IMG/VR virus record: IMGVR_UViG_3300012005_000009
Location: 1 to 29,103 of that record
Reading direction: 5' to 3' (one strand)
DNA: 29,103 nucleotides
DNA from: a virus
Each line of letters opens with the position of its first letter. Position 1 is the stretch's first letter. Both the position numbers and the translations under genes were made by a program. The notes below the pieces were generated by a model. The model was given only the letters and a program-made list of their open reading frames with translations. It made no database searches and was not told the DNA's origin. Positions 1,826-28,542 of the stretch are shown here, piece after piece.

Positions 1826-4108
1826 TTAATTCGTTACTTCTACAGTTTCAACTAGGGCGGCCCACCTAAAGGTTTTGCTATTTGCACCAGTTGCGGTTAC
1901 TTTCAAGCTTCCATCTACCGTTATCGCGTAAACTGCAGCATCTACGGTATTATCAGTTTTATGATAAATCGTTTTAACTACATTTCCTTTTAGGAATGTA
2001 GCGGCAGCCGAAGCTCCCCTCATTATCATTCCTCGTAGCTCCATGACAGCTTGATCATCGCCATCTGTCCTATGCCCAGTAATAGTTATCTTAAAGGACC
2101 AAGTAGAATTGTTCGCGAGGATAATTCTTGCTCCACCACCATCTCCATTAGCATATAGTTCATATTCTGCCGCTGTGGTAGACTTAGCGATCAGCATATA
2201 TTTACAATATTGAACATCTCCAGCAGTTAAAAACTTGCTTCCAGCAAAGGCCATTTGACCAGGAAGCGTTGCTTTAGCTCCTGTTCCAAATGCTATGGAA
2301 TTTTGTCCTGTGGCGGTAGGAGTATCTTCTAGATAAGGGCTTTCTCGATAAAGGTGAAGAGGAAGTTGGTGAACTATCCAGTTTGCTCCATCATAAACTT
2401 CTTGAAGGCCGAGAGTTTCATTGAACCTAGTCATACCAACGCTAGGAGATCCTGGTCTAGCAGCCGTCGTTCCATGCGGCATAGTAAATGCCAAGCCTGG
2501 AATAACTAATGTAGAAGATATCGATAGAGTTAAGCTACTTAATGCACCACCGTCTGTTAATACGATTTGATTAGACGTTCCAGCAAGAAGCCTAGAAGAT
2601 GAAAGGGCACTATCAGTAACGGCAAGAACGAATGCCGAAGATGTAGATGCAGGAGCTCCTGTTGGACCCGTAACTGATGGGCCAGTCGGTCCTGTTACTG
2701 ACGGACCGGTAGGGCCAGTTACCGTAGATGCTGGACCTGTTGGACCTGTGACTGATGGGCCGGTAGGGCCAGTGACACCCGTAGTACCAATCGGCCCGGT
2801 AGATCCTGTTGGACCCTGAGTTCCAGTTGGACCCGTTACCGACGGACCAGTTGGACCAGTAGTTCCAGTTGGACCTATTGCTCCAGTAGTTCCAGTTGGA
2901 CCTGTTACTGATGGGCCAGTTAATCCGGTTGACCCAGTTGGGCCAGTTGGGCCAGTTGGACCTGTTGGACCTGTTGCTCCAGTGTTACCTGTAGTTCCTG
3001 TCGGGCCGGTAGCTCCTAACAATCCAGTAGGACCCGTTGGTCCAGGAGCACCTTGCTGTCCAATACCAGTAGGCCCGGTTGGACCTTCACCACCAGTAGC
3101 CCCAACGTCCCCTCTAGGACCAGTTAAAGACGCACCTGTAGGTCCGATCACACCAATCGGTCCTGTTGGTCCTTGGGACCCTGTAGGACCAGTCAATGAG
3201 GTGCCGGTTGGACCAGTGATACTTGGTCCGGTGGGACCTGTTACGGTTGAATCAGCTCCGCTAGATCCTGTGGGTCCAGTTTGACCACGTGGACCAGTAG
3301 GACCAACGATCGTAGAATCGGCACCAGTAGACCCCGTCGGGCCAGTTGATCCTGTTAATCCTGTAGACCCTGTTGGACCAGTTGCTCCAACAGCTCCAGT
3401 GGATCCTGTCGGGCCAGTAACGCTTGGACCAGTAGCTCCAATCTCGCCTTGTGAGCCGACAAGACCTTGCGGACCTGTCGGTCCTGTTGCTCCAGTGGTT
3501 CCTATACCAGTAGGCCCTGTTTGACCAAGTAATCCAGTTGGGCCAGTTTGACCTCGTAACCCAGTTGGACCCGTTGGACCGACGTGGCCTGTTGGCCCAA
3601 CAGCACCGTCAACACCATTAGTTCCAGATGGACCAGTGACTCCAGTTAATCCAGTAGGACCGGTGACGCCTTGGATACCTTGGGCTCCTGTCGGGCCAGG
3701 ATATCCTTGTACACCTTGGGCTCCTGTCGGGCCGCCTGATCCGGTAGGACCACTAGCTCCAGTATTACCGGTGAGTCCATCTGCACCAGTAGGACCAGTA
3801 GCTCCAGACATTCCTGTTGGACCTGCTGGACCCCGAGTTCCAGTTCCTGATCCGGTGCCGATAGGCTGCCACGCAGCTCCATCCCAAAAGTTGAAGAGAA
3901 CTAAATCGGTGTTGAAGATAAGAACGCCAGGAACTAGCTTGGCTGTGTCAATGGCGTCTTGTTGAAGAGTCGTCAACCGAGGGGCAAGAAACCCCTTATC
4001 GGTTGTATTGATGGCAAGAGCAACGCTTTCAGGAGTCGGAGGATTGCACGCATCTCCGATGATGACAGCGCCAAATTCGCTTGACGGAAAGTTAAGAATC
4101 TTTGTCAT
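1826..4108 (-). CDS. Collagen-like phage tail fibre protein
   Basis: A 760-residue protein in three parts. Residues about 1-85 resemble the N-terminal part of fibre proteins with a [15 protein letters not shown]...PGVLIFNTD...[11 protein letters not shown] wrap motif. Residues about 88-490 are a collagen-like Gly-X-Y tract dominated by GPTG and GATGPTG, which in known phage proteins forms a rigid trimeric stalk. Residues about 490-760 are a globular C-terminus with another [17 protein letters not shown]...YDGANW motif and a beta-rich tail, the likely receptor-binding or trimerisation head. Cys is almost absent. The ATG lies about 40 bases downstream of a perfect T4-type late promoter. Nearly every long frame on the opposite strand here is a Pro/Val-rich shadow of the repeats. 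Confidence 0.88.
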
Positions 4109-6959: not shown

Positions 6960-7130
6960 TCAACCCTTCGCAGTTCGATCAATCCACTTTTGCCATGCAG
7001 CCTTGTGGATACGACAAACACATGAATGTCCTGTTGATCGTTCTGGTTCCCAATTATCAAGATCGCAGTTGCACCTCATTGACTTCTCAATTTCAGATAC
7101 AAAATCTTTAGGTTCAGATTTTTGATTCAT
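6960..7130 (-). CDS. Small Cys-rich protein, possible zinc ribbon
   Basis: A 56-residue frame that is too short to be noticed easily. It starts at ATG 7130, overlapping the stop of the CoaB-like gene (7127) by 4 bases, and ends 2 bases before the next start. Four Cys in two pairs (CNC near 20 and CVC near 37) with nearby His residues (35, 42) suggest a small zinc-binding fold; the tail AAWQKWID is amphipathic. Its tight overlap on both sides is the main support that it is real. Function unknown. Confidence 0.6.
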   Translation of the reverse strand: MNQKSEPKDFVSEIEKSMRCNCDLDNWEPERSTGHSCVCRIHKAAWQKWIDRTAKG

Positions 7131-8365
7131 ACTTTAAACTCCTCAGTAAAGATTCCGCCAGTCTTACCAGATAAGTCAAAATGACGATCAAAGAAATCAA
7201 TCACCTTTTCGCTAGGGATCGTCCTTTTAAAGACGACGTTCGGGCCATGATTTTCAAGGTAAACCGCCCAAATACCAGGCTCAACTTCCTTCAAGTTGCT
7301 AGACGTATTTTGACCACACTCGTGAGAACCGCACTCATAAGGCCATTGTTCAGCGATGGGGATGATTCCCTTAGATTCTTCCTTGAGCGGAACGTGAGCG
7401 TGGGCGATGCAATCTAGCTCTGGGTGATCAGCGAAGATGATTCTTTGAGATTGACCACCGACCGAAGGCTTACCACCGATCGCGAAAACCTTATCATCTC
7501 CGTCTGGAAGGATCCTGATCATGCCAGTTCTTGACAAATCATTGAAGTTACTCTTTCTACGGCTAGTGATGATGTCGCCACCGCCGTCCTTATAAGCAAA
7601 ATGTCCAACAGTCTTTCCTAGGAAAGGTTTGTACGCACCTTTGTTGATCAGGTGATTAACAGTTTCAAACAAACTATTTGGAACGTTATTGCTGTTCCAT
7701 TGTCTTGCATTACCAGGAATAACTGTTGATCTAGTAAATGTCAGCTTGGTCCGGGCCAAGATCATCTTGGTTAAAAATCGCAACGCTTGATCACGATTTT
7801 TCGTTTTAGAGTAGGTTGATTCTTCTGGGGTGACGATGACATTTTGACGAGTTACCAGGTCATTAGCCAGAACTAGGTTAAGAGAATTTGTCTTGAGTAG
7901 CTTCAACCCGGCTTGGTACTGATCTTGGTCTGACGCTGAGGTGGTTGACTTGAATCCCACCACAAAGATGTCCTTACGGGTCTTACGAATCATGCCGATG
8001 AGCTTATCAGCCGGATGCAGTCTCATCCGCTGATCACCATCTTGTGTCTTCATCCGATCAGCATGAGGACCAGAAGGAATATCGCCGATTGATCCGTCGT
8101 AATCACAGAGAGCAGCATTCATGACGATGACCTTAGTGCTCGGGTCATCGATCAGCTCTTCTATCAACTTTTTAACATCATCATTGGTAATGATTTTAGA
8201 TCGAGAGTCAGCCATCTTCGTGAGATGAAGTCTGACAGAATACTCTCCTTGCTCCAGAAGATCAGTGAGACGCTTTGCGGTCTCGCCGAAAGCCATCGCT
8301 GACAGTGCAAGGTGGTTACGAACCGGTGAGAAGGTCCCTCCGCCAATGATATGAATGGTGTCCAT
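7127..8365 (-). CDS. CoaB-like (phosphopantothenate-cysteine ligase) / class II aldolase-like fusion
   Basis: A 412-residue protein. Residues about 1-180 match the CoaB half of Dfp/CoaBC: GGGTFSPVRNHLALS at the nucleotide end, VMNAALCDYDGSIGDI (Asn83) where CoaB has NAAVADY, VVGFKSTT near 136, and LNLVLANDLV near 163. CoaB joins cysteine to 4'-phosphopantothenate using CTP. No CoaC flavodomain is present. Residues about 230-405 resemble a class II aldolase/adducin fold: DIITSRRKSNFNDL, a metal-type HAH at 322-324, and ENHG near 372. The combination is not one I know from cellular CoA enzymes. It is driven by a good sigma70-like promoter at 8388-8417 and has an AGAGGAAA ribosome site. Confidence 0.7.
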   Translation of the reverse strand: MDTIHIIGGGTFSPVRNHLALSAMAFGETAKRLTDLLEQGEYSVRLHLTKMADSRSKIITNDDVKKLIEELIDDPSTKVIVMNAALCDYDGSIGDIPSGPHADRMKTQDGDQRMRLHPADKLIGMIRKTRKDIFVVGFKSTTSASDQDQYQAGLKLLKTNSLNLVLANDLVTRQNVIVTPEESTYSKTKNRDQALRFLTKMILARTKLTFTRSTVIPGNARQWNSNNVPNSLFETVNHLINKGAYKPFLGKTVGHFAYKDGGGDIITSRRKSNFNDLSRTGMIRILPDGDDKVFAIGGKPSVGGQSQRIIFADHPELDCIAHAHVPLKEESKGIIPIAEQWPYECGSHECGQNTSSNLKEVEPGIWAVYLENHGPNVVFKRTIPSEKVIDFFDRHFDLSGKTGGIFTEEFKV

Positions 8366-8907: not shown

Positions 8908-9816
8908 TTATACCGCGATCGGTAGTTTAACGAAGGGATGTGATTCATACCCTATTATATCAAAATCTTCGATCTTGTATCCATCTATATCAATATTATC
9001 GGTGTTAATAAGAAGTTCAGTCTTACAATCCTTGGGAGGACATGTTGCCAAAACTTCCTTGATCGGTTCCAGGTGGTTGAGATAGATGTGTGCATCACCG
9101 TAGTTAATCTTCAGCTTACGTGGTTTCAACCCAGTAGCTCTAGCTAAAAGGTGAGTGAGCAGAGCATACTGAGAGATGTTAAACGGTCCACCTAGGCAAG
9201 TGTCCCAGCTCCTGATCGACATCATCAGGTCCAGGTGTCCATCATTAGATACGTAACATTGAAAATCTCGGTGGCAAGGTGGCAAACCCATCTCAGATAG
9301 GTGAGTTGGGTTCCAAGCGGTAACGATGTGGCGCCGACCTTCTGGATTCTTCTTGATCATCTCGATCAATTGTTTGACTTGATCGATATCTGGTTCTTTT
9401 GTCCAAACGTGACGAGGATGCTTTAGCTTTGGTGTATCTTCATCAAGTCCATCTTGTGGATTGCACTGCTCCATATCATCAGGTAGCGTAGTAACCCAAT
9501 CAGCTTTTCCTGGCCACTTCCTCCATTGAACACCATAGATCGGACCTAGGTTCCCTTGTTTATCGGCCCAGTCATCCCAGATCTTTACTCCATGGTCCTT
9601 GAGGTACTTGGTGTTTGGCTCTCCGCGGAGGAACCAAAGCATCTCGATGAAGGCGTGCTTAAATAGAGTTTTCTTAATGGTAACAAGTGGAAAGCTTTCT
9701 CGAAGGTCGAACTCCAGGTGACCACCAAAGATAGATTGAGTTCCAGTCCCAGTGCGATCGCCGCGGATCTCGCCTTCGTTGATGATCTTGTTTAATAGGT
9801 CTACGTATGGTTTCAT
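8908..9816 (-). CDS. thyA: Thymidylate synthase
   Basis: Converts dUMP to dTMP with methylene-tetrahydrofolate. The 302-residue reading starts at the ATG 9816 (MKPYVDLLNKIIN) because this aligns with the usual ThyA N-terminus; a GTG 24 bases upstream has no better ribosome site. Motifs: GDRTGTGTQSIFG near 19-31, the catalytic Cys181 in LPPCHRDFQCYV, RSWDTCLGGPFNISQYALL (202-220) for dUMP binding, and GDAHIYLNH near 240-248. All key positions are present, with a modest insertion around 105-140 compared with the 264-residue E. coli enzyme. It works with the dNMP kinase (15750) and the MazG-like gene (11319) in dNTP supply for replication. Confidence 0.95.
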   Translation of the reverse strand: MKPYVDLLNKIINEGEIRGDRTGTGTQSIFGGHLEFDLRESFPLVTIKKTLFKHAFIEMLWFLRGEPNTKYLKDHGVKIWDDWADKQGNLGPIYGVQWRKWPGKADWVTTLPDDMEQCNPQDGLDEDTPKLKHPRHVWTKEPDIDQVKQLIEMIKKNPEGRRHIVTAWNPTHLSEMGLPPCHRDFQCYVSNDGHLDLMMSIRSWDTCLGGPFNISQYALLTHLLARATGLKPRKLKINYGDAHIYLNHLEPIKEVLATCPPKDCKTELLINTDNIDIDGYKIEDFDIIGYESHPFVKLPIAV

Positions 9817-9823
9817 ATTTTGA

Positions 9824-10186
9824 TTAAATGTTAGGAACACCGTGTTTCTTGACTAGATCAGCCAAGATTCTCTTCTCTTCAGTTTCTTTCTTGAGCTTAC
9901 GCTTAATCGCCGCTGCTTTTCTAGCAACTTCCCTCTTATCTTCCTCTTGCTTTCGCTTCTTCTCTTCCTCGAGGAGAAAGGCCTTAAAGGTTGCTATGGT
10001 GCTAAACATCTCTTCAGTTGGTAATAGCTCAACCACTCTAAAGTTGTATACGTATTGAGCTCGAACAAGAAGAGCATATGTTTCTTCATCTACCTCTTCA
10101 AATTTACTCACATTGCTGACAACCATCTCGGTATGATCATAAGCGCATGATTTTTCGATGAATCTAATTAAGGCAATTTTTCTCAT
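9824..10186 (-). CDS. Coiled-coil hypothetical phage protein
   Basis: A 120-residue protein. The first 70 residues are a mixed fold; residues about 70-110 are an uninterrupted run of Lys, Glu, Arg and Ala (EEEKKRKQEEDKREVARKAA and onward), almost certainly a long charged helix or coiled coil. It starts one base after the stop of the upstream gene and ends 7 bases before thyA. Function unknown. Confidence 0.7.
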   Translation of the reverse strand: MRKIALIRFIEKSCAYDHTEMVVSNVSKFEEVDEETYALLVRAQYVYNFRVVELLPTEEMFSTIATFKAFLLEEEKKRKQEEDKREVARKAAAIKRKLKKETEEKRILADLVKKHGVPNI

Positions 10187-11093: not shown

Positions 11094-11338
11094 GACATTA
11101 TTTTCTTTAGAAGCTTGACAAAGATACCTTTGTGCTTGTTATAGATCCGACGAACATAAAATCCCCTAATGATGCTGGCCACCGTAAAGATAACGGTGAT
11201 AAGGATGTTTTGTCCGGCGGTAGGGTGAATCCCAATTACAAAGGGGACGATCATAAATTGAATGATCATCGCCACAATAAAACCCGTGCCGACGCTGACC
11301 AGGGTTTCTTCTAAGCTCTCAAGCTTCGATTGTTCCAT
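11090..11338 (-). CDS. Small membrane protein, DUF7220-like
   Basis: An 82-residue protein with two hydrophobic segments (about 15-37 and 44-60) and a positively charged end (YVRRIYNKHK...). The opening MEQSKLESLEETLVSVGTGF and the TAGQNILITVIFTVASIIRG block resemble a small phage membrane family I recall as DUF7220. It probably sits in the inner membrane with both ends in the cytoplasm. It overlaps the end of the MazG-like gene by 20 bases and the next gene by 4. Confidence 0.7.
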   Translation of the reverse strand: MEQSKLESLEETLVSVGTGFIVAMIIQFMIVPFVIGIHPTAGQNILITVIFTVASIIRGFYVRRIYNKHKGIFVKLLKKIMS

Positions 11339-11993
11339 TATTTATCCGTAAGTAACTAGCAATTAACTCTTCTGTCCGAGGTGGAATCCATCCTTCTGGT
11401 TTGAACACGTCTAGAGTCGAGCTTCGTTTTGATTGTGTAGCTGAAGTAGCTCGTTCCTTTGACATGTTAGCACGTTGAACGTCAGCCCACATCTCATCCC
11501 ATTGTTCATTAGTGAGATCCATCTTTGTAGATGCGAACATGCAGTTTAGGTAGATTGAGGCTAAAGCACGCTTAATGATATCAGCGTTATTAACTTCGCT
11601 AGCGTCAATGTACATCTCAATGTTGCTGTTGATGTTAGCGATGAAGCTTGAATTATCAGCTGGTGTTAGGAAGTGTGGATTTCCTGTTGGCGTTAAGTTA
11701 GGAGACTCGAGACCAGCAGCTTTGTGGTCAAAATCGAGGATTTCGTCAAACTTATCAAAACCGATGCCATGGAATAGTGCGGTGCCGCAAGTGATATAGA
11801 CGAGGTCGATCAGTGAATCGACTGCGGTACCAAGGTCATTGGCTGAGCATGAGTCTACATACTCTGTTAGCTCTTCGTAGAAGAACTTTACTCGGAAGTC
11901 GAAGACATTCCGGTTTAAAAAGGTAAAGTCTGAGGGAATCTCAAGGCCAAACTTATTGTGGAAGAGTTGAACGTCTCTGCAGTAATGTGACAT
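11319..11993 (-). CDS. MazG-type nucleotide pyrophosphohydrolase-like protein
   Basis: A 224-residue protein. The ATG at 11993 is chosen over a TTG at 12008 because AAGGA lies 7 bases before it. Residues 36-80 carry the all-alpha pyrophosphohydrolase signature: FFYEELTEY (Glu41 and Glu44, EXXE) and TAVDSLIDLVYITCGTALF (Asp59, Asp63), the metal-binding acids. Family members hydrolyse NTPs or dNTPs to monophosphates and can lower ppGpp or clear odd nucleotides. The C-terminal half (about 130-224) is an extension with no motif I know. The leader may form a hairpin over the ribosome site (see the inverted repeat 11993-12051). Confidence 0.75.
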   Translation of the reverse strand: MSHYCRDVQLFHNKFGLEIPSDFTFLNRNVFDFRVKFFYEELTEYVDSCSANDLGTAVDSLIDLVYITCGTALFHGIGFDKFDEILDFDHKAAGLESPNLTPTGNPHFLTPADNSSFIANINSNIEMYIDASEVNNADIIKRALASIYLNCMFASTKMDLTNEQWDEMWADVQRANMSKERATSATQSKRSSTLDVFKPEGWIPPRTEELIASYLRINNGTIEA

Positions 11994-12051
11994 AAAATAG
12001 TCCTTCAAAGAAGAAACTATTTTATCCTAAATTTCCTCTTGGACTATTTTA
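11993..12051 (-). promoter_or_regulatory. Inverted repeat able to hide the MazG-like ribosome site
   Basis: On the minus strand TAAAATAGTCC (12041-12051) is perfectly complementary to GGACTATTTTA (11993-12003), which contains part of the Shine-Dalgarno and the first base of the ATG. A second partial copy, TAAAATAGT (12016-12024), can pair with the same target. The two possible hairpins would compete for the ribosome site. This fills the 72-base gap between genes. Confidence 0.45.
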
Positions 12052-12731: not shown

Positions 12732-13475
12732 TTATACGATCTCACCATCACCGATCTCCGAGTGCTTGTACTTCAAAATGGTTAGCCAATTGTTGGAATC
12801 GGCGTGTTCTTTCAGAGCCTTCATCAAAGATTCAAGATCTGATCGCTCTTGATTCGGATTGAAGTTGACGTTAACGGTCGCCGTCGTATCATTGTAGAAC
12901 ACGGCAGTCGACAAGATGACCTGGGTGCGAACCACTACAGCGTCGGCCTTAGGATCATACTCAATGGTCGGAGTCTTGATCGCATTGAGGCGCCAGCCTC
13001 GACGTCCCTTGACGCGAGACTTTTCAGCCCAAGTCTTGAGAACTTCGCGAAGCTGGGTACGATACGGACGGAAATCTTCGACGTTGTCAACATTAGTGAT
13101 GAGCTTCAGGTCAATGATCGACAGCTCCTTCGTGTCATCGGCCTTATTTGGGAATTGACCTGGTTGAGTCATGATCAAATTTCGAGTTGACAACGTATGG
13201 AGCGTCGAGTTGGTCGACATCTCAACGATCGCGTTGTGTTGCTTCTCGGTGACGATCTCCTTGAATGAGGAGAACTTCTCCATCGAGCCGACGGTGTCAA
13301 AGGAGCTTTCCTTGGTGAGGTCGAAGCCACGAATAACGAATGGTTTTGCAGATGATTTCTTTGAAGACATGGTAGATTTCCTTATAGCGTTATGAAATTC
13401 TTTGCGCAAGCGATCAATTCCTTCTTTGGTAGCGGGCGCTGTTGCAGGGATGAAATATGGTTTTGTTGACTTCAC
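12732..13475 (-). CDS. Hypothetical protein downstream of the PARP gene
   Basis: A 247-residue soluble protein. The GTG at 13475 overlaps the PARP stop (GTGA), which would couple translation. An internal ATG at 13370 (MSSKKSSAKPFVIRGFDLT) has a good AAGGA 8 bases upstream, so a 212-residue form may also be made or be the only one. The N-terminal part (KPYFIPATAPATKEGIDRL) still reads like real coding sequence. The C-terminal half has beta-strand-like repeats of Thr and Val (DAVVVRTQVILSTAVFYND). No domain recognised. Being directly coupled to PARP, it may act with or on it. Confidence 0.65.
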   Translation of the reverse strand: MKSTKPYFIPATAPATKEGIDRLRKEFHNAIRKSTMSSKKSSAKPFVIRGFDLTKESSFDTVGSMEKFSSFKEIVTEKQHNAIVEMSTNSTLHTLSTRNLIMTQPGQFPNKADDTKELSIIDLKLITNVDNVEDFRPYRTQLREVLKTWAEKSRVKGRRGWRLNAIKTPTIEYDPKADAVVVRTQVILSTAVFYNDTTATVNVNFNPNQERSDLESLMKALKEHADSNNWLTILKYKHSEIGDGEIV

Positions 13476-14809
13476 TTTTTGTCAAACTCAACTAGGTAAC
13501 GCAAGTTGGCTTGGCTGGTGCGATAAACGATCATCTCATTATTCATCACACCGGACTTTCCTCCGACGGCGAAGGTTGAATCAAACCCGCGCTTTGGTAG
13601 TGTTTCATAAGAAGCTTTTGGTGTATATGGGTTACCCATAGCAACATCAGCTAAGAACATGAAGCAGTTGTTATCACGAGAACCGCGATCCCAGTAGCCA
13701 TAGGCGTAATTAAGAGATTTTGACGATTGATCTGAGAAGTAGAGTCCGTCTCCGAACAAGCGACCAGTAACGTGGATGGATCCACCTGACTTTGGAACGA
13801 TAAGGAAGTTCTTCAAGATCGACAGTACATTGAAGACGCGAGTACCATGCCACAAAAGCTGAATGTTACCAAGCTTAGCTCCATCGGTCTCAAAAGCGTC
13901 ATGAGCCGCGTTATGCTTTACCTCATAGAACCGAATTGGCTTCAGGTGAGCAGATTCATGGCTCTTATTAACATTGTCAAAGTACATCTTCTCGATCATC
14001 TTGATGATCTTCGGATCAGTCACCAACTTCAGGTCTGTGTTGAACAGCTCCGGAGCGGCTGCAACTGTTGAAGCAACAGCACCCTTGAGAGCGGCTTCCT
14101 TACGCGCGGTTGCCATGTCAGCAGACGCTTCAAGCTGATCAAGCAACGTATTTTGACGTTGCAGACCGATGTCATCGGTCACAAAAGTACGATACCATCC
14201 GCGTCCGTGGGCGACGGTCTGTGGAACCAGCATCAGGTAGTTATCGAGGAGCTTGATGAAGGAGCGATTGTCAAGGTCATGAGCTTGAACGTACGGAGCA
14301 AGGTCATTGAGGAAGATACGAGCTTCATTGATGTTATCCTTGGTGACAACACCCATCGCCGTTTTAATCAGGCCAGACGAATCGATGTTCATCGCTCCAC
14401 CAGAAGCCTTATGAAGTTCATGCTTATTAGCTTCTACGAGCCGAGTTACCAAGCTGACTAGTTCAACGTCTTTCTTGGCCAATTGGGAAATAGCAGCTTC
14501 TTTGACGGCGGCCTTAGATAGGTCTGGTCCGGTAGGTCCAGAGACAATTCCTTCGTCTAAGACAGGAATTTCCTTGTAGGGGGCTTTGTATGAGGGAGTA
14601 CCTTCTTTGCCGCGACCGTTGAGCTTTTCTCGGATCTTTCGATCTAGGTCTGATTTATTCTTTGGTGCTTCTACGTTCTTGGTCTTACCCATCCGACCAT
14701 AGGTAGCGACATAGGTGTCGTCGTCAAAGAGTTGATATTCCCAGAACTTTGCGTTGTTGTTTTCGCCGTCAAAGCAGACGAATTTACGGTGTTCAACTAG
14801 ATTTGCCAT
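13472..14809 (-). CDS. WGR-domain poly(ADP-ribose) polymerase-like protein
   Basis: A 445-residue protein with the order of eukaryotic PARP1: a WGR domain (residues about 8-80, with FWEYQLF...YVATYGRMGKTKN, YGR in place of WGR), a helical regulatory-type region (about 105-250) and an ADP-ribosyltransferase domain (about 280-445). The H-Y-E catalytic triad is complete: His321 in LLWHGTR, Tyr357 in FGDGLYFSDQSSKSLNYA, and Glu425 in NNEMIVYRTSQANLRYL. Members transfer ADP-ribose from NAD onto proteins or nucleic acids, and the Glu allows chains. T4 has Alt and ModA/B, which are of a different type. The ATG at 14809 is preferred over TTG 14824. A perfect late promoter lies 67 bases upstream. Confidence 0.9.
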   Translation of the reverse strand: MANLVEHRKFVCFDGENNNAKFWEYQLFDDDTYVATYGRMGKTKNVEAPKNKSDLDRKIREKLNGRGKEGTPSYKAPYKEIPVLDEGIVSGPTGPDLSKAAVKEAAISQLAKKDVELVSLVTRLVEANKHELHKASGGAMNIDSSGLIKTAMGVVTKDNINEARIFLNDLAPYVQAHDLDNRSFIKLLDNYLMLVPQTVAHGRGWYRTFVTDDIGLQRQNTLLDQLEASADMATARKEAALKGAVASTVAAAPELFNTDLKLVTDPKIIKMIEKMYFDNVNKSHESAHLKPIRFYEVKHNAAHDAFETDGAKLGNIQLLWHGTRVFNVLSILKNFLIVPKSGGSIHVTGRLFGDGLYFSDQSSKSLNYAYGYWDRGSRDNNCFMFLADVAMGNPYTPKASYETLPKRGFDSTFAVGGKSGVMNNEMIVYRTSQANLRYLVEFDKK

Positions 14810-15267: not shown

Positions 15268-15753
15268 TCACTTTTTCACAAAGACCTTATAAGCTGAGAT
15301 CCAATCAGTTGAGATGGCGGTCTGAGCTTCATGAAGCGTTATACGGCCTCCACAGACGGCTCTCTTGAGAGCGTTTTCGAGTTGATCTTTCTTTCGAGCA
15401 TTCCACTCGATCGGAGCTTCCTTAGTCCCATATGGTTGTGGCCAAAGATTTTTAGGATCGGTTGGATGCCCACCCAGCTCAAGGCTGATCAGGTGATCTT
15501 CTTCATAATGACGAGGATCCATGTCATCATTTTTATAGTCTGCGGCAAGTTGGGTCAACTTTAACTTTCTAAAGTAGCTATTAGCTGGACGAATCGTTCC
15601 AGTGAAGCCTGGTTTGCAGATCGTGTCCTGGATATTTTCCTGAGTGACGTCAGGATTGCTTGCTCCTGGAGTGACATCAGCGATAGGAAGCGTTTCCTGA
15701 GAGAATGCAACAGCAGAGATGAAGAATAACGATAGAGCGATGATACGTTTCAA
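15268..15753 (-). CDS. Exported protein with HNH-like nuclease motif
   Basis: A 161-residue protein with a signal peptide (MKRIIALSLFFISAVAFSQ, cut near residue 18). The start is a TTG at 15753 that overlaps the upstream stop (TTGA) and has AGGA 8 bases before it. The motif EEDHLISLELGGHPTDPKNL (84-103) with Asp86-His87 and Asn102, then WPQPYG and WNAR, matches an HNH (beta-beta-alpha-metal) family that I recall in many bacterial exported proteins ending in DWISAYK. Two Cys (46 and 134) could form a disulphide, fitting the periplasm. A phage nuclease outside the cytoplasm could cut DNA of competing phages or salvage host DNA after lysis. Activity is inferred only. Confidence 0.75.
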   Translation of the reverse strand: MKRIIALSLFFISAVAFSQETLPIADVTPGASNPDVTQENIQDTICKPGFTGTIRPANSYFRKLKLTQLAADYKNDDMDPRHYEEDHLISLELGGHPTDPKNLWPQPYGTKEAPIEWNARKKDQLENALKRAVCGGRITLHEAQTAISTDWISAYKVFVKK

Positions 15754-16316
15754 GAGAAGATCCTGTCAATTTGTTGATGGAGGTTAGTAACGCCAAGACC
15801 TTTGTCATTAATGATCTCGATGTCAGATGGATACTGTGTGATTCCAGCTTCAGATGCGTGCTGTGATTGCTCATCCTTCTTGAGGCCAGGAACCTTAAGA
15901 TAGATTAAGATTCCGCCTGGTTGCTGACGAAGCCACTCGCCTTCGTTCTCAAATCGAACGTCGGTGATGATGGTTCCTTTGGCTGACTTGTGATTTGCTT
16001 CAAACTCCATCTCAGCACGCTTGATCCAGACATCATCACGAAGCATTCCTCGGCCATATTCGGTTCCAAGCTTTTGCATCGCAAAGCGCGGGGTGAATCC
16101 CCAAAATGGATCAACCTCCTTCTTCAGTGCCTGGTCCTCGAGCTGTTCATGCGTGAAGCCAAACATCTCAATGCAGGCACGCTTAAGCGGACCAGCGAAG
16201 GCGTAGCGCCCAAACTTGCCAGGAAATTTAGCTTGGATGTAGTTGGCTGTGGTATCCTTGCCGCCGTTGAGCGGACCGTGGATCCCGATGATGGTGACCT
16301 TGGAGATGTCAATCAT
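15750..16316 (-). CDS. Deoxynucleoside monophosphate kinase (T4 gp1-like)
   Basis: A 188-residue P-loop kinase. GPLNGGKDT (14-22) is the ATP-binding loop, in the GKDT form typical of phage dNMP kinases; RYAFAGPLKRACIEMFGF (37-54), WGFTPRFAMQKLGTEYGR and IITDVRFENEGEWLR follow in the usual order. The enzyme phosphorylates dTMP, dGMP and modified dCMP to diphosphates, next to thymidylate synthase in the pathway. The ATG has AGGAA 8 bases upstream. It overlaps the exported nuclease gene by 4 bases (TTGA). Confidence 0.88.
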   Translation of the reverse strand: MIDISKVTIIGIHGPLNGGKDTTANYIQAKFPGKFGRYAFAGPLKRACIEMFGFTHEQLEDQALKKEVDPFWGFTPRFAMQKLGTEYGRGMLRDDVWIKRAEMEFEANHKSAKGTIITDVRFENEGEWLRQQPGGILIYLKVPGLKKDEQSQHASEAGITQYPSDIEIINDKGLGVTNLHQQIDRIFS

Positions 16317-16867: not shown

Positions 16868-17085
16868 TTAAACGGTAACAACAAAGTTTGAACCAGGTGG
16901 CTCCCTGCCTCGAAGACGCCGACTAATAAACACCATGATCCAAAGATCAATAGGCCTAATGATCGAACCATGTCACCAGTGGTAAACTTTGACCTAGACA
17001 ATGGATTCTTCAAAAATTGAGCATAGATCATCAACGCTATGAAGATGATCCATATAACAATGTTGAATGCGTTAAAAACACTCAT
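16864..17085 (-). CDS. Small membrane protein
   Basis: A 73-residue protein with two hydrophobic segments (about 6-24 and 42-62), separated by a basic loop (NPLSRSKFTTGDMVRS). AAGGA precedes the ATG, which overlaps the stop of the topoisomerase subunit (ATGA). Probably an inner-membrane protein; function unknown. Confidence 0.65.
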   Translation of the reverse strand: MSVFNAFNIVIWIIFIALMIYAQFLKNPLSRSKFTTGDMVRSLGLLIFGSWCLLVGVFEAGSHLVQTLLLPFK

Positions 17086-18467
17086 GATAGTTCCTTTGAG
17101 AGGTCCAGCGCCTCAAGATCTGTAATGTATAGGCTGGAGGCAGTTGACAGTTGATAATAATCAATGTTCTTTTGGGTCTCTTCGATCTGTTTTTCGAGCA
17201 TTTGAATACGATCTAATGTGAGGTTATAGATCTTTATCTCGAGCAATATATCAATCAAGGTGAACCCAACTTCGAGTAGCATAGCTGACATCTCAGCACG
17301 AGTTTTCTTAGAGAACTTTTCGGCGTTAGCGATGTAATGTCTGATGAATCGGAGCCGTTCATTGCGCTCCTTGAGCTCATAGTCGAGCTCAACAAGCTTG
17401 GCTTTCCTTCGATCTTCATACTTGGTCAACCTAAAATCGATGAAGTAATCACACAGGTCCGCGGCGTTAGCAAAGCACTTAAGCTTACCGTTCGGCAACC
17501 ACACAGTAAAGTTTTCAGTGTGTCTGGCAGCAAGCTTGAAGGTTTTAACGAGTACCTCATCATCTTCATAGCCTATAGATCGTGGAACATTAATCCTAAA
17601 ATCCCAACTATCAGTTGAAGAATCATTAACATAAGACTTGATGATCTCCTTGTCTTCAAGTCCATTAAGAAATTCTTTATAGCTATCTTCCCAAATGCCG
17701 ATCGGAAGCTCGGTGATGCGTAGCTGTGTGGAATTAACCCGCTCCATAACGCCGGTGATGGTTACTTGACCGGTAGAATCATTACGCTCGATCTTACCTT
17801 TGTAGCCACGAAACCATGGGAACAGCTTGATATTTTGTTTCTTGCTCTTCAGCTTATTGAGGATGTATCTCTTTAGATCTTCTGGATTGTACTGAAGAAT
17901 ATAAGTGGCGTGGCCAGTAGCCATCCCATCAGATCCATTGATAAGCACGTTTGGAAGGATAGGAAGATAATAAATTGGTTCGATCTGATCACCATCTTCC
18001 TCCAAGTGTTCGAGGATTGTGTCATCTTCGCGAGGGAAGATCTTGCGGAAGATGCCATTCAGGTCGGTGAAGATGTATCGATCAGCACCAGGTTCTTTAG
18101 ACAACCTAGATCCAAATTGACCGATCGGCTTAAGATAGTTAAGATTGTTAGATCCTGGGAAATTTTGAGCCATACCAGCGATAGCTCCAGCCAATGATCC
18201 TTCACCATGATGGTATTGCGAGCACTCAGCTATATAGGCCGCTAACTGAGCTACCTTAATACCTGTGTCAGGGATAGACGGAGCCTTCTTGAGGGTTCCA
18301 AAGATGACCTTGCGTTGAGACGGTTTAAATCCGTCAACAACAGATGGGATCATCCGAACGTTGTTATAGATGGAGAATTCTCTGACCGGTCCCCTGAATA
18401 GGTCTGATACTCGGATTGACTTGTTTGCTTTTATTTGAGGTCTGGTGACCTTAGGTTGCATTGCCAT
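17082..18467 (-). CDS. DNA topoisomerase II medium subunit (T4 gp52-like)
   Basis: A 461-residue protein of the GyrA/ParC type without the C-terminal beta-pinwheel, as in T4 gp52. Motifs: VDGFKPSQRKVIFG (44-57), QYHHGEGSLAGAIAGMAQNF (84-103), and the DNA-cutting Tyr131 in GADRYIFTDL, preceded by Arg130. The subunit makes the transient double-strand break and pairs with the ATPase/Toprim subunit at 21127-23094. The C-terminal region is a coiled-coil (ELKERNERLRFIRHYIANAE). The start at 18467 has GAGAAA upstream; a second Met is two codons later. An extended -10 promoter lies in the preceding gap. Confidence 0.93.
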   Translation of the reverse strand: MAMQPKVTRPQIKANKSIRVSDLFRGPVREFSIYNNVRMIPSVVDGFKPSQRKVIFGTLKKAPSIPDTGIKVAQLAAYIAECSQYHHGEGSLAGAIAGMAQNFPGSNNLNYLKPIGQFGSRLSKEPGADRYIFTDLNGIFRKIFPREDDTILEHLEEDGDQIEPIYYLPILPNVLINGSDGMATGHATYILQYNPEDLKRYILNKLKSKKQNIKLFPWFRGYKGKIERNDSTGQVTITGVMERVNSTQLRITELPIGIWEDSYKEFLNGLEDKEIIKSYVNDSSTDSWDFRINVPRSIGYEDDEVLVKTFKLAARHTENFTVWLPNGKLKCFANAADLCDYFIDFRLTKYEDRRKAKLVELDYELKERNERLRFIRHYIANAEKFSKKTRAEMSAMLLEVGFTLIDILLEIKIYNLTLDRIQMLEKQIEETQKNIDYYQLSTASSLYITDLEALDLSKELS

Positions 18468-18540: not shown

Positions 18541-19356
18541 CTATTTATTCTTGATCTCGGTTGGCATTCCGGCCGCGATGAGCTCCTTCTCAACCCACGG
18601 CCACCAGATCTGCACTCCATCGATCCAACCGATCAACCCATGAGCGTCTGCCTTAAATGGCCCAAAACTGATCAGCTTCGCTGGAGCTCCATGCTGTGTG
18701 TATACGTTGTATAATTGTTCGGCCATCTCAGGGCTAGTGTAGCTGTCATTGACACCGTAGAACCAAACCGATGGGATCTTAGCCGTTTCTCCGTATTTTG
18801 CAAATGCGTCAACCATTGCAGCCTTCCAATCACACCCTCTTTCAAATTTTAGAACACCTGCAAAGTTGATCAATAGTTTAACTCCAGGATAATTAGTCGA
18901 TCCAAAACCCATCGTCGCTAGTCCGCCAAAGGATTGTCCTGCGATGATGATGTGATTTGAGTCTACCCAAGGGAGCTGTTTGAGGTAGTTTAAGATCTCG
19001 CTGATGTCATCGCCTTGGTGTCTACCGGTGGTGGCGAGATCGCATCCATCTTCCATGAATGGACCAGTCGATTGTGCAAATCCTCGTCTCATCGGTAAGA
19101 TAACCGCGTATCCTCGATCAAAGAATTGCTGGGCGAAGTTCTTGTAGGTAACTCGAGCTTGACCTCTGGCAGGACCGAGATCCTTCCCATGATTCATGAT
19201 AACTATCGGGAATGGGCCAGGGCCTGGAGGCTTGAAGATGGTAGTTTCCAAAAAGATCTGAGGGAGAACCTCGATCATCTGTACATTTTCGTAGAGCGTA
19301 CCGCCGAAGCAGTTTAGGGAAAAGAAGAGAAGAAGAGCAACAAGTAGCTTTTGCAT
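18541..19356 (-). CDS. Exported alpha/beta hydrolase
   Basis: A 271-residue protein. Residues 1-18 are a signal peptide (MQKLLVALLLFFSLNCFGG); a Cys is near the cut but the lipobox is poor. The mature part is a dienelactone hydrolase/peptidase-like alpha/beta fold: IVIMNHGKDLGP (oxyanion side), nucleophile Ser142 in AGQSFGGLA, Asp204 in YGVNDSY and His239 in DAHGL, a complete triad. Cys105 and Cys175 could pair in the periplasm. The substrate is unknown; an ester or peptide in the envelope is plausible. It is divergent from the plus-strand LRR-like gene, with an inverted repeat between them. No clear ribosome site. Confidence 0.82.
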   Translation of the reverse strand: MQKLLVALLLFFSLNCFGGTLYENVQMIEVLPQIFLETTIFKPPGPGPFPIVIMNHGKDLGPARGQARVTYKNFAQQFFDRGYAVILPMRRGFAQSTGPFMEDGCDLATTGRHQGDDISEILNYLKQLPWVDSNHIIIAGQSFGGLATMGFGSTNYPGVKLLINFAGVLKFERGCDWKAAMVDAFAKYGETAKIPSVWFYGVNDSYTSPEMAEQLYNVYTQHGAPAKLISFGPFKADAHGLIGWIDGVQIWWPWVEKELIAAGMPTEIKNK

Positions 19357-19415: not shown

Positions 19416-20009
19416 ATGAAACTTACCCACCTATTTGAACAATCAGAGATGAGCGCTGATGACTTGTGTTTATGGATGCGTGACCACGCTACAGGTGTGG
19501 TCCATGCTTATCACTCTTCATTTTTTAAGTACATCAGCCCTGGAGTATTCGACATCTCCGCAGATGTGTTCATTGAGCTAGCTGATGATGAAGAGCTTCC
19601 AGTTCAATTTAGAGAGACTAGATCACTATTCTCAATAAAAGGAGGAAAGTCACTGAAGGGTTGTCCGCGTAAGGTAGATAGCGCGTTTTACGTAAAAGGA
19701 AATGCTTCATTTGAAGGAGCACCGTTAGAGTGCAATGGAGTGTATATCGCCGATAGAGATAGCTTAACTAACATTCATAAGCACTTTAATACAATTCATC
19801 GTGTTATCACCATTGGTGAGCAAATAAAAAGTAACATATTAGGAATCTTATTGATTCCAAATTTTAATGGATCGCTCAAGGGTCAAGGAAATGGTAATGT
19901 AGAAAAGGCCTGTAAGATCCTTGAATCATGCGAACGCAGCAAGAAGGGCGTTTTAGAAGCACAAGACAAGCTTGAAGATGCAGGACTAGAGGAGTTTGCG
20001 AAGCTATGA
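19416..20009 (+). CDS. LRR-like phage paralogue 1
   Basis: A 197-residue member of a five-gene family in this window. Shared plan: start MKLTHLFEQ, a helix with a Trp (LCLWMRDHA), a DGxV-type strand region, short repeats of the form SLKGCPRKV, a conserved NILGILLIPNF block, and a C-terminal helix ending GVLEAQDKLEDAGLEEFAKL. Family members in large phages have leucine-rich-like repeats (xxLTSLxGxP). Function unknown; a protein-binding scaffold is likely. No strong ribosome site. Its stop overlaps the next paralogue (ATGA). Confidence 0.75.
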   Translation: MKLTHLFEQSEMSADDLCLWMRDHATGVVHAYHSSFFKYISPGVFDISADVFIELADDEELPVQFRETRSLFSIKGGKSLKGCPRKVDSAFYVKGNASFEGAPLECNGVYIADRDSLTNIHKHFNTIHRVITIGEQIKSNILGILLIPNFNGSLKGQGNGNVEKACKILESCERSKKGVLEAQDKLEDAGLEEFAKL

Positions 20010-20698
20010 AGCTATATCAACTGAAGGAAACTGGGTTTAATCCTAAAGACTGGATCAAGCAACACTATAACTCATTTGCTGGTTCTACTGCCGAAAGATA
20101 TTTTGTAGATGACACGATCATCAATGATGATGGAACGGTTAACTATGATAGCAGCTTATACTTGCGTGATATCTCTAGGATAGAGGTGGAATTTAATGTG
20201 GTCAAGGGGAATTTTGAGGTAACTACTACTTCATCAAGTTTAACATCGCTGAAGAATTCCCCGAATGAGGTGTATGGGACCTGTAGGGTTCGGAACCAAA
20301 AGATAACGTCACTTCAATATTGCCCTAGGTGGATAAAAGATAACCTTGACCTGGGATCAAACAAGATCGAGAAGATTGATTATTTTCCAGAGCACGTAGG
20401 TGGGTGGATCAACCTCGCTGAAAACAATATCAAATCTCTCAAGGGAATTCAAAAGATGATCAAGGAACTTAAAGGAAAGCTATACTTAGGAGGTAATCCG
20501 ATCACAAGGTCTATAATTGGATTGACTATGATTCCTGGCGCAAACAAAAATACCGTATTGTTTGGGACCTTAATCTCATATAATTTGAGAGATGCCCTAG
20601 ATATAATGGAGCCTTACTATGGAAAGAGCAAGGCCGACGTCTTAGAGTGTCAAGAAAAGATGATCGACGCCGGTCTTGATGATTACGCAGAGTTTTAG
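20006..20698 (+). CDS. LRR-like phage paralogue 2
   Basis: A 230-residue member with the clearest repeats: SLTSLKNSPNEVYG, KITSLQYCPRWIKDN, LDLGSNKIEKIDYFPEHVG and NNIKSLKGIQKMIKELK, each about 20-23 residues with a Leu/Ile ladder. It has the shared NPITRSIIGLTMIPG block and the end VLECQEKMIDAGLDDYAEF. The ATG overlaps the stop of paralogue 1. Its 3' end overlaps the convergent gene at 20695 by 4 bases. Confidence 0.78.
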   Translation: MKLYQLKETGFNPKDWIKQHYNSFAGSTAERYFVDDTIINDDGTVNYDSSLYLRDISRIEVEFNVVKGNFEVTTTSSSLTSLKNSPNEVYGTCRVRNQKITSLQYCPRWIKDNLDLGSNKIEKIDYFPEHVGGWINLAENNIKSLKGIQKMIKELKGKLYLGGNPITRSIIGLTMIPGANKNTVLFGTLISYNLRDALDIMEPYYGKSKADVLECQEKMIDAGLDDYAEF

Positions 20699-21126: not shown

Positions 21127-23094
21127 CTATTCTCCGCTCATGTCAGCCGTGGTGATGTCCAGGTCATCACCATCTTCTGTTAGAGCCAACCACTTCTTAC
21201 GCTTATCAGCCGATCCGGTACCCTTACCGAAGACCAGCCCAATTACACCTGAATCTTCTACATCTTCAATTCTTATCTGGATGAGGTGATCATTTATGTT
21301 ATTAAGATATTCTCTAAACTCATCATCCTGGCTAGTCGCCAATCCCTTATAGTATTTTTGTCGATACTTAGTCGTCTCATGAGTAGCCTTCCAAGATTTG
21401 AACTCATGCTCCTCGAAGAAGCTAATGGGTTTCTTCGAAGTACCGACCCAAACCTTCACGATCGGAGTTACAAATCGATGAATGATTCCCATGGTAAACA
21501 GCTCTGGCCAGAACTTATAGAGGTTTGAGATGAGCAACCCGGTGATGTGTCCGGCACCGTCATGGTCAGCATCTGTCATGAACGCGAGCATTCCGTAACG
21601 TAGGTCTTTGACTGACTTAACTGGAACTCCGATCTTAAGTCCCATTGCGGCCATGATATTAAAGGTCTCAACGTTCTTCTCGATCTTCTCCGCGGTCACA
21701 GAGCTCATGTTGAGCGGAACACCTCGAAGCGCCAGGAAGCCCATCGTGTCCCTGTCTCCGGTACCCTTACCCGCCTTTGCGGCCGAGTCTCCCTCGGTCA
21801 AGAAGAGGATGCAGCGCTCAGGTTGCTTCCCAGCCAGGTTAGCGTCCTGCAGCTTGATGATGTGCCTTGGGTTAAACTTATCAACTTCCTTGTTCAATCC
21901 TCGCAGCTTCGCCATTTCGGCCGCTGCCTCCTTTGCTTCAGCCCAGTCAAGAACCTTTTGAATGATCTCCGACTTCATGATCCTAGCCATGAATTTCTCG
22001 TCAGGAGACCAAGATGTCTTGAACTCTTTGGCCTCTGTCATCAAGTTTTCCTTGGTTTGAGAATCATACCTTGGGTTAATGATACGCGCGTTGATGAAGA
22101 CCTGCATGTGATTCATGATCTCTGATGGCTTGGCATCGATCTTGTGCTTTTTCTTGATAAACTCACGAACCTTATTAACGATCTGCTCTGAGACATACTT
22201 AACATGGTTACCACCTTGAATCGTTTCAGTGGTGTTAACAAATGAAACTTGTTGAAAACCATCATCGCTCTTAGCGACGGCGATTTGCCAATCCTTATTT
22301 TCGTCATATTCGAACTCATCGATGTACATACCGACGTAGTCCTTGAAACCGTTGATCTTAATGCGATCGCCGTTGAGGTAAACCTTAAGGTGCGGATTAC
22401 AACCAGCTACGTCAATAACACGCTTGACGAGCTTAGAATAGTTGTCATCATCTAGCTGCATGTCAAGGTGTTTATAATCTGGAGTAAAGCTGATCTTGGT
22501 ATAGCCCTTACCATCCATCTCGATGATTTGAGGATTTGTCTTTAGCAGCATGTTCTTAGTCCACGTCTGCTTGAACTTCTTCTTACCATCACAGGTTTCA
22601 ACCGTAAAGGTTGTTGAGAAGATGTTCGTCAAGGATGCACCCTCACCGTTCTGTCCCGTGAGGTCGGTTTCATCGTTGTCGTCGAAATTTGAACCAGAAC
22701 GGAGGTAACCGAAGATCATCGACGGCACATACTCCTTGTATTCTGTATGGAGCTGGACAGGAATTCCACCGTTGTCCTGCACGATTATCTCTCCAGATTG
22801 ACGGTGCAGCTCAACCTTGATAACATCAAGGTGCTTACCTTCTGGTGTTTTGGAGAAGTCGACCGAGTTAGAGAGAATCTCATCAAAAATCTTGATCAAC
22901 CCAGGGTTCCAAGTAACCTCTTGTTGCTTCATCTTCAATTGACCAGCATTCGGCGTTCCATAGGACTGGCCGAGAATCCAAGTTTTGAGAGTCTTAGGTT
23001 TGATTGAGCCGATATAACGGCCCGGGCGGAGGAGGACGTGTTCGACGTCCGTGAGCATTCGGTACTTCTGCTCGATTGTTTTTTGTTTGGTCAT
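21127..23094 (-). CDS. DNA topoisomerase II large subunit (T4 gp39/gp60-like)
   Basis: A 655-residue GyrB/ParE-type protein. ATPase (GHKL) motifs: FDEILSNSVDF with Glu72 and Asn75, VQDNGGIPV (106-113), GQNGEGASL (147-155). The Toprim domain has LTEGDSAAKAGKGTGDRD (Glu433) and TDADHDGAGH (507-514), which hold the metal for DNA cutting. In T4 the large subunit is split into gp39 and gp60; here the ATPase and Toprim parts are one protein with all motifs. It partners with 17082-18467. The start has no obvious ribosome site; an extended -10 promoter lies 29 bases upstream. Confidence 0.93.
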   Translation of the reverse strand: MTKQKTIEQKYRMLTDVEHVLLRPGRYIGSIKPKTLKTWILGQSYGTPNAGQLKMKQQEVTWNPGLIKIFDEILSNSVDFSKTPEGKHLDVIKVELHRQSGEIIVQDNGGIPVQLHTEYKEYVPSMIFGYLRSGSNFDDNDETDLTGQNGEGASLTNIFSTTFTVETCDGKKKFKQTWTKNMLLKTNPQIIEMDGKGYTKISFTPDYKHLDMQLDDDNYSKLVKRVIDVAGCNPHLKVYLNGDRIKINGFKDYVGMYIDEFEYDENKDWQIAVAKSDDGFQQVSFVNTTETIQGGNHVKYVSEQIVNKVREFIKKKHKIDAKPSEIMNHMQVFINARIINPRYDSQTKENLMTEAKEFKTSWSPDEKFMARIMKSEIIQKVLDWAEAKEAAAEMAKLRGLNKEVDKFNPRHIIKLQDANLAGKQPERCILFLTEGDSAAKAGKGTGDRDTMGFLALRGVPLNMSSVTAEKIEKNVETFNIMAAMGLKIGVPVKSVKDLRYGMLAFMTDADHDGAGHITGLLISNLYKFWPELFTMGIIHRFVTPIVKVWVGTSKKPISFFEEHEFKSWKATHETTKYRQKYYKGLATSQDDEFREYLNNINDHLIQIRIEDVEDSGVIGLVFGKGTGSADKRKKWLALTEDGDDLDITTADMSGE

Positions 23095-26780: not shown

Positions 26781-27413
26781 ATGAAACTTACGGATCTGGT
26801 CTTATCTGAGCAACAACAATTTCTTACCGATGAAGATGACATTTGGGAGTGGTTGAGAGTTTATTGCGAGATTCTAACACCTTTTAATTCAAGAATTGAC
26901 ATTTTAAAAGATGGTACCGTGAATTGTGATAGATCTATCACAATTCACAAACCTGTTGATTACATCAAAGTGAAGTTCGGAGAAGTTGAAAATTACTTTA
27001 ACGCCGATAAAGCGCGTCTTAAATCGTTGAAGGGTAGCCCAACCGAAATCGTCAATATTCATAATAAATCTTGGATATGCTATGGTAGTGAAGGAGAGCT
27101 AACTTCCTTCGAGGGTATCACCAAGGATGTACACGAAGTTTCATTCCTTAGGTGTAATGGGCTAACAAGCCTAAAAGATATCGATAAGCACGCGGTATGT
27201 ACACAGCTCTTTATTCCGCCCTCGATAAAAAGTCACCTTTTGTCGGCGATGAAGATACCCAACATTAAATCTATCTCGACCGAACAATCTCGCAAATTTG
27301 GCGACATTTATGAAGCGTTAAAAATTATCAAGCCATTTATCGGTCATGGAAATGCTGGTATCCTTGACGCTCAAACAGCATTGATTGACGCTGACCTAGA
27401 ACATCTATCATGA
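26781..27413 (+). CDS. LRR-like phage paralogue 3
   Basis: A 210-residue member of the family at 19416. It begins MKLTDLVLSEQQQ, then DIWEWLRVYC, NCDRSITIHKPVDYIKVKFG, repeats LKSLKGSPTEIVNI and ELTSFEGITKDVHEV and LTSLKDIDKHAV, the block HLLSAMKIPNI and the end GILDAQTALIDADLEHLS. AAGGAG lies 8 bases before the ATG. Its stop overlaps paralogue 4 (ATGA). Confidence 0.77.
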   Translation: MKLTDLVLSEQQQFLTDEDDIWEWLRVYCEILTPFNSRIDILKDGTVNCDRSITIHKPVDYIKVKFGEVENYFNADKARLKSLKGSPTEIVNIHNKSWICYGSEGELTSFEGITKDVHEVSFLRCNGLTSLKDIDKHAVCTQLFIPPSIKSHLLSAMKIPNIKSISTEQSRKFGDIYEALKIIKPFIGHGNAGILDAQTALIDADLEHLS

Positions 27414-28072
27414 AACTAAAGAACTTGTTTGAAGAAGAGCTGACGAAGGGTCAAGTTGTCGAGTGGCTCCGAAAGCACTGCAATGGTCACGTTTTGAAGA
27501 ATGAAATAGACCCAAGCCTGGGCAACACCAGCGCGCATGACATCACAGAAGATATGATTGATATAAAAGACAACATCGTTTCTATAGATGGTGGAATTGA
27601 ATTGGTCAGCATCACCGATGATATTCCATTTAAGCTTGGAACGATTGACGGATCATTTACGATCTATGATAGCACCGTTTCTCTTAAGAACTTGCCTACA
27701 CGCATCTTGGGTGAATTTAATTTCACCAAGATAAAGATAAAGTCACTCGATCACTTTAAGCATTTTCCAGAGTTCGTGGACGGAGATGTTAACTTACACA
27801 ATTGCGAGCTTACCTCTCTTGAGGGACTTCACAAGAACCTCAAGCACATGAATGGAGTGCTGTGGGTTGACATCAACCCAATAAAATCTCACTTGCTAAG
27901 CCCAATCTTAATTCCTGGGTGCACCAGGGTTAGGGTTGGTAGAGATGCTAATGAGCGACTAACGCTTGCGGCGACTTACGTCAATGATCACCTGGGTGAA
28001 GGCAAGTCTGGAGTGCTCGATGCCCAAAATGAACTGATTGACGCTGGGCTTGATGAGTTTGCCGAGCTCTAA
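27410..28072 (+). CDS. LRR-like phage paralogue 4
   Basis: A 220-residue member: MKLKNLFEEELTKGQVVEWL, then TVSLKNLPTRILGEFN, KIKSLDHFKHFPEFVDGDVN, CELTSLEGLHKNLKHMNG, the block INPIKSHLLSPILIPGC and the end GVLDAQNELIDAGLDEFAEL. It overlaps paralogue 3 by 4 bases and ends just before the non-coding structured region. Confidence 0.78.
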   Translation: MKLKNLFEEELTKGQVVEWLRKHCNGHVLKNEIDPSLGNTSAHDITEDMIDIKDNIVSIDGGIELVSITDDIPFKLGTIDGSFTIYDSTVSLKNLPTRILGEFNFTKIKIKSLDHFKHFPEFVDGDVNLHNCELTSLEGLHKNLKHMNGVLWVDINPIKSHLLSPILIPGCTRVRVGRDANERLTLAATYVNDHLGEGKSGVLDAQNELIDAGLDEFAEL

Positions 28073-28512: not shown

Positions 28513-28542
28513 GGTAGGATAGAGGAGTTTGCTGAGCTATGA
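28513..28542 (+). pseudogene. Remnant 3' end of an LRR-like paralogue
   Basis: These last codons read GRIEEFAEL-stop and closely match the 3' end of paralogue 1 (19980-20009: GAGGAGTTTGC and AGCTATGAAG are shared), with one base missing that breaks the family frame upstream. An in-frame TAG lies at 28501. The rest of that paralogue is absent, replaced by the structured region. Its stop overlaps the start of paralogue 5, as between other neighbours. Confidence 0.5.

Follow-up and report, generated by a model that had tools for sequence, protein, structure and literature searches.

The locus examined here raises the question of whether a phage gene resembling a poly(ADP-ribose) polymerase (PARP) encodes a complete enzyme, to which PARP type that enzyme would belong, and what it might do during infection. 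The window, meaning the whole stretch of DNA analysed (29,103 nucleotides), comprises positions 1-29103 of a 47290-base IMG/VR virus record (IMGVR_UViG_3300012005_000009). The phage is large and T4-like; as the nearest relative of large size is a contig of 345 kb (59% identity), the record probably represents part of a jumbo-phage genome. Within the window, the PARP gene (445 aa) occupies positions 13472-14809 on the minus strand, with its ATG at 14809 and its stop codon at 13474-13472; this span is a single open frame, and many stops close the plus strand. An earlier note on this DNA had placed the gene at exactly these coordinates, leaving the strand unstated. The gene is real, intact and well conserved, and its product has the architecture of PARP2 and PARP3.

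Several searches carry this identification. The catalytic family is recognized directly by Pfam (PARP, PF00644; 91.5 bits, E 6.5e-26, cut-off 26.7), PHROG 23333 ('polymerase') spans nearly the full length of the protein (E 9.7e-63), and a PDB search with the single window sequence returned chicken and human PARP1 (best E 1e-17); no NCBIfam model matches. In single-sequence Pfam searches the WGR (19.3 bits) and PARP_reg (18.4 bits) matches both fell below their respective curated cut-offs, and these two assignments are nevertheless secure because of a profile of 15 phage homologues and the predicted fold. The profile matched PARP2 (6usj, E 8.7e-41) over profile positions 8-383, covering the WGR domain, the helical domain (HD) and most of the ADP-ribosyltransferase (ART) domain, and matched PARP1 (4dqy, E 1.3e-40) from the WGR domain via the HD into the ART domain. 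Structure prediction, which the earlier note had proposed as a check, yielded an AlphaFold2 model (45 sequences; pLDDT 85.6, pTM 0.77) in which the ART fold is present and the linker at residues 86-99 has low confidence. Its best Foldseek matches in the PDB were PARP1 and PARP2 structures, including the DNA-bound human entries 7s6h, 4opx and 4dqy (PARP1) and 6x0l (PARP2), at E-values from 1e-22 to about 1e-25 (best 3e-25). Whole-chain TM-scores against these structures were about 0.5-0.7, which probably reflects a different placement of the domains. The best named matches in a viral structure library were ADP-ribosyltransferases of a bacteriophage and of Bodo saltans virus. The strength of the PARP match is beyond chance.

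The domain order claimed by the earlier note, WGR followed by helical and catalytic domains, is borne out by the profile and the predicted fold. The WGR domain (residues 1-85; 14555-14809, minus strand) carries the motif NNNAKFW...YGRMGK, with N18, K21, G38 and R39, and is modelled as strands at residues 4-14, 19-28 and 32-39 followed by a helix at 52-64. The helical, or regulatory, domain (residues about 100-250; 14060-14512, minus strand) is assigned from the weak PARP_reg match, the profile and the model, and the ART catalytic domain (residues 256-445; 13475-14044, minus strand) from Pfam, the PDB match, the profile and the predicted fold. Since the protein begins at the WGR domain and lacks both the three zinc fingers and the BRCT domain of PARP1, a strict PARP1 architecture is ruled out, and the description 'PARP1-like' given earlier is better replaced by PARP2/3-like (WGR-HD-ART only). 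Judged from sequence and model, the protein belongs to the clade-1 PARPs, with a WGR domain N-terminal of the catalytic domain and a predicted helical autoinhibitory domain.

The active site is complete. H321 (codon 13847-13849, in LWHGTR), Y357 (codon 13739-13741, in GDGLYFSDQSSKS) and E425 (codon 13535-13537, in MNNEMIVY), all read from the minus strand, align with the H-Y-E triad of PARP1 and PARP2 and do not vary among the 66 sequences of the alignment, namely 64 phage or bacterial proteins plus human PARP1 and human PARP2; the PARP2 region preceding the Glu is incomplete in this alignment because the letters of the two human proteins came from HMMER output. K364 and Y368 are likewise invariant. 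In the WGR domain, G38-R39 is invariant in all 61 sequences aligned there, and position 37 is Tyr in 32, Trp in 20, Asn in seven and Phe in two; the window protein reads Y-G-R, and in bacterial PARPs Tyr mostly replaces the W of WGR (PMC5966428). Conservation extends to the HD core leucines (L167, L223 and L226). A full triad including Glu425, as the earlier note had reported, is therefore present, and the link it drew from this Glu to chain formation holds in part: the residue makes chains possible, but its presence does not show that they are formed. The note was also right to set the T4 ADP-ribosyltransferases apart, as Alt, ModA and ModB, although phage ARTs too, belong to the R-S-E clade (PMC9503650), and the R-S-E active site is not found in the window protein.

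Among enzymes whose activity has been published, the nearest come from bacteria. HaPARP of Herpetosiphon and CdPARP of Clostridioides difficile CD160 have the same architecture by published description, and the CdPARP triad (H322, Y359, E428) has nearly the numbering seen here (PMC5966428); both differ in being cellular genes of demonstrated activity with a PARG in the same genome. Bacterial PARPs of this architecture are DNA-activated and make poly(ADP-ribose) (PAR) (PMC5966428, PMC4245714). Human PARP2 and PARP3 share the WGR-HD-ART arrangement, and PARP2 is the best profile match, with identities of 25% in the WGR domain, 13% in the HD and 33% in the ART domain; a basic N-terminal tail is absent from the window PARP. 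Among phages, the Xanthomonas jumbo phage XacN1 encodes a protein annotated as poly(ADP-ribose) polymerase (BBA65562.1, ORF414) with 39.6% identity over residues 8-443, but in a different neighbourhood, a von Willebrand A protein being encoded by the next gene. Klebsiella phage vB_KpM_FBKp34 (QQV91759.1; 31% identity) shares the annotated WGR, PARP regulatory and PARP catalytic domains as well as the triad, yet this 141 kb phage carries its PARP near anaerobic ribonucleotide reductase genes, and the protein forms a separate deep branch in the tree. The PARP of Cellulophaga phage phi4:1 (AGO49444.1, named in PMC4245714) shares a WGR-type start and H-Y-E but is very divergent (branch 3.0), and the PARP-like protein of Aeromonas phage Aeh1, also a phage ART, has its ART domain within a 1211-aa frame with other domains (PMC1266365).

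Phage PARPs of the WGR-HD-ART type are thus already known in public genomes and reviews, and the window gene is a further member. At the protein level 15 GenBank phage records match, six of them at full length (XacN1, two Stenotrophomonas phages and three Klebsiella phages); relatives recognized by two signature motifs occur at 48 loci in IMG/VR, many on contigs of 300-476 kb, and GTDB genomes contributed 16 loci. The Aeh1 protein was listed in 2005 (PMC1266365), PARPs of four dsDNA viruses, including two phages, were listed in PMC4245714, a jumbo-phage PARP was reported in 2021 with XacN1 BBA65562.1 as the example (PMC7824862), and PART has been counted with the ART families that viruses carry most frequently (PMC9503650). 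To have called the architecture rare in phages was therefore an overstatement, given the IMG/VR loci, the isolates from four host genera (Xanthomonas, Stenotrophomonas, Klebsiella and Cellulophaga) and reports dating back to 2005-2014. The literature searched contained no bench assay of any phage PARP.

An IQ-TREE tree was built from 66 sequences, two of which represented eukaryotes, one of these with an incomplete C-terminal part. Here the window protein grouped with phage contigs (100/93) and then inside a set of 11 phage sequences (100/99) that adjoins sequences from Variovorax, Gemmobacter and Defluviimonas. Phage and bacterial sequences were mixed, with eight label changes, which suggests that PARP genes may have been exchanged between phages and bacteria in either direction. 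The eukaryotic pair branched apart from the main phage group. With the window protein deep in a phage-bacterial clade, this tree with its two eukaryotic sequences speaks tentatively against one recent acquisition from eukaryotes. The mixing and the position of the eukaryotic pair make phage PARPs relevant to the origin of clade-1 PARPs. Full-length homologues were also observed on Variovorax, Gemmobacter, Defluviimonas and Mycolicibacterium/Mycobacterium contigs and on a Pseudomonas serbica plasmid (loci L065, L066, L068-L071 and L073).

The gene lies in a conserved replication and nucleotide block, all on the minus strand in the window, that related contigs share wholly or partly: genes for a type II DNA topoisomerase large subunit (21127-23094) and gyrA-like subunit (17082-18467), a deoxynucleoside monophosphate kinase (15750-16316), the PARP, an ORF of 247 aa (12732-13475), a MazG/PRA-PH-type pyrophosphohydrolase (11319-12008) and a thymidylate synthase (8908-9840). 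Counted from its first start codon, the 247-aa ORF shares 4 bases with the stop end of the PARP gene, and in five related loci a homologue follows PARP at a short distance, the motif KxWAEKSRVKxxRGxR being invariant. By position this ORF is a possible candidate partner of the PARP; a partner function finds no further support, the protein matching neither a known family nor a known structure. Between the topoisomerase genes lies an unusual neighbour, an alpha/beta hydrolase of the dienelactone hydrolase/S15 type with an apparent signal peptide (18541-19356, minus strand).

Beyond the window, the record encodes NAMPT (record positions 38772-40268), and the gene next to it specifies a bifunctional NMNAT-Nudix protein (40278-41447); these two genes also stand side by side in two further phages with PARP; macro-domain, PARG and ADP-ribosylglycohydrolase genes were not found within these 47 kb. 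Across 16 PARP-bearing large-phage records, macro domains occurred in 12, the NAPRTase/NAMPT family in 11, ADP-ribosylglycohydrolase in six and microbial PARG in one (phage G serving as positive control for the microbial PARG model), compared with 12 macro, 12 NAPRTase and two glycohydrolase genomes among 23 other large phages; five of these controls have a weak PARP-family match, and both glycohydrolases lie in phages with such a match. Eukaryotic-type PARG (PF05028) matched in no genome, controls included, so that its absence carries no information. When 14 PARP-bearing phages were compared with eight large phages of matched size without PARP, enrichment with PARP was unsupported for macro domains (12/14 against 5/8, p=0.31) and for the NAPRTase/NAMPT family (9/14 against 5/8, p=1.0). 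NAD salvage and macro domains are thus general features of large phages, not clearly commoner with PARP than without, and so do not demonstrate a functional link to it. Alone among the genes compared, ADP-ribosylglycohydrolase showed a sign of enrichment (6/14 against 0/8, p=0.05, size-matched; 6/16 against 0/18, p=0.006, unmatched), no more than a hint given the relatedness of the genomes and the choice of the sample by hand. Where a complete PAR cycle of a phage is concerned, the best candidate by gene content is a 395 kb phage contig on which PARP occurs together with a microbial PARG and a macro domain (L204; G004 51763-52218). That jumbo phages possess a full poly(ADP-ribose) cycle of their own, managing DNA breaks during infection with a DNA-end-activated PARP, NAD regeneration by NAMPT and NMNAT, and a macro domain, ADP-ribosylglycohydrolase or PARG as eraser, is a speculative proposal that we consider doubtful.

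With regard to function, we consider it reasonably probable that the window protein acts as a clade-1 PARP, activated by DNA breaks and ADP-ribosylating in an NAD-dependent manner; by analogy, DNA-end-activated (poly)ADP-ribosylation would be its most likely activity. The domains, the NAD-site triad, the conserved WGR residues and the HD core leucines, all taken from sequence and predicted fold, point this way. As in HaPARP, CdPARP and human PARP2/3, the WGR domain would bind DNA breaks, the bound break would relax the autoinhibitory helical domain, and the ART domain would move ADP-ribose from NAD onto the enzyme itself and onto break-associated proteins, the products probably being chains because the Glu is present; the mode of action would be that of the two bacterial enzymes. 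Points that count against this reading are the Tyr in place of the WGR tryptophan, the missing zinc fingers and BRCT domain, the lack of eraser genes in the 47 kb of the record and the macro and NAMPT frequencies given above. More tentatively, its place in the topoisomerase/nucleotide block suggests that the enzyme may act during infection on broken or replicating DNA, and the phage NAMPT and NMNAT-Nudix proteins could return the nicotinamide it releases to NAD.

These same features bear on the alternatives. A role like that of T4 Alt and Mod, in which defined host proteins such as RNA polymerase would be modified to redirect the host and the WGR domain would dock on nucleic acid instead of sensing breaks, has been proposed for phage ARTs and PARPs in jumbo-phage surveys (PMC7824862, PMC9503650), and ARTs are common in phages; it is nonetheless unlikely here, as the conserved WGR-HD pair is the break sensor and autoinhibitor of clade-1 PARPs and the gene sits in the replication/nucleotide block, away from head or packaging genes. 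Overactivation of PARP drains NAD in eukaryotes, which speaks for a defence or exclusion factor that would sense breaks made by nuclease defences or a superinfecting phage and then lower NAD or tag incoming DNA or proteins. The prominence of ARTs in phage-host conflict (PMC9503650) adds to this reading, but the protein has no PADLOC match, toxin-antitoxin pairing was not seen, and the phage itself would replicate less well once NAD was drained, at odds with its NAD salvage genes, so that we hold it to be quite improbable. The earlier suggestion that the enzyme counters NAD-based defences fits a consumer of NAD poorly, and the NAMPT/NMNAT pair of this genome suits that role better.

Less probable still is the modification of DNA or RNA ends, with ADP-ribose placed on terminal phosphates to shield phage DNA from nucleases: one report (PMC8190142) describes PARP2 as modifying DNA besides proteins, but sequence gives no distinction between the two targets. 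A decayed or inactive homologue is the least credible reading, against which stand the open frame, the intact domains and a triad invariant across a deep family. Should phage PARPs of this kind prove active, PARPs of the DNA-repair type encoded by viruses would be at work in bacteria, where PARP is rare, the effect of PARylation at phage DNA ends would become a direct question, and these proteins would offer compact PARP2/3 models for work on allostery and inhibitors.

Other genes of the record merit description. One family, with at least 11 paralogues (about 190-256 aa) that end KxGVLDAQxELxDAGLxxFAxL and are encoded on both strands, is unusually large for a record of 47 kb; its members lie on the plus strand in the window (19416-20009, 20006-20698, 26781-27413, 27410-28072 and 28539-29102) and on the minus strand further along the record (32711-33343, 33340-34005, 34002-34649, 34646-35356, 36370-37140 and 37153-37905), and the three that were scanned, two in PHROGs and one in Pfam, gave no family match. 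A collagen-like protein with long G-P-T/G-x-T repeats (1826-4108, minus strand) is probably a tail or head fibre, and a 412-aa protein (7127-8365, minus strand; phrog_35624, of unknown function) has a DFP (CoaBC C-terminal) portion joined to one that weakly matches class II aldolase/adducin. A second, divergent thymidylate-synthase-like gene (record G000 43665-44354; L108 14666-15355, minus strand) might encode a dUMP/dCMP-modifying enzyme and so hint at altered bases.
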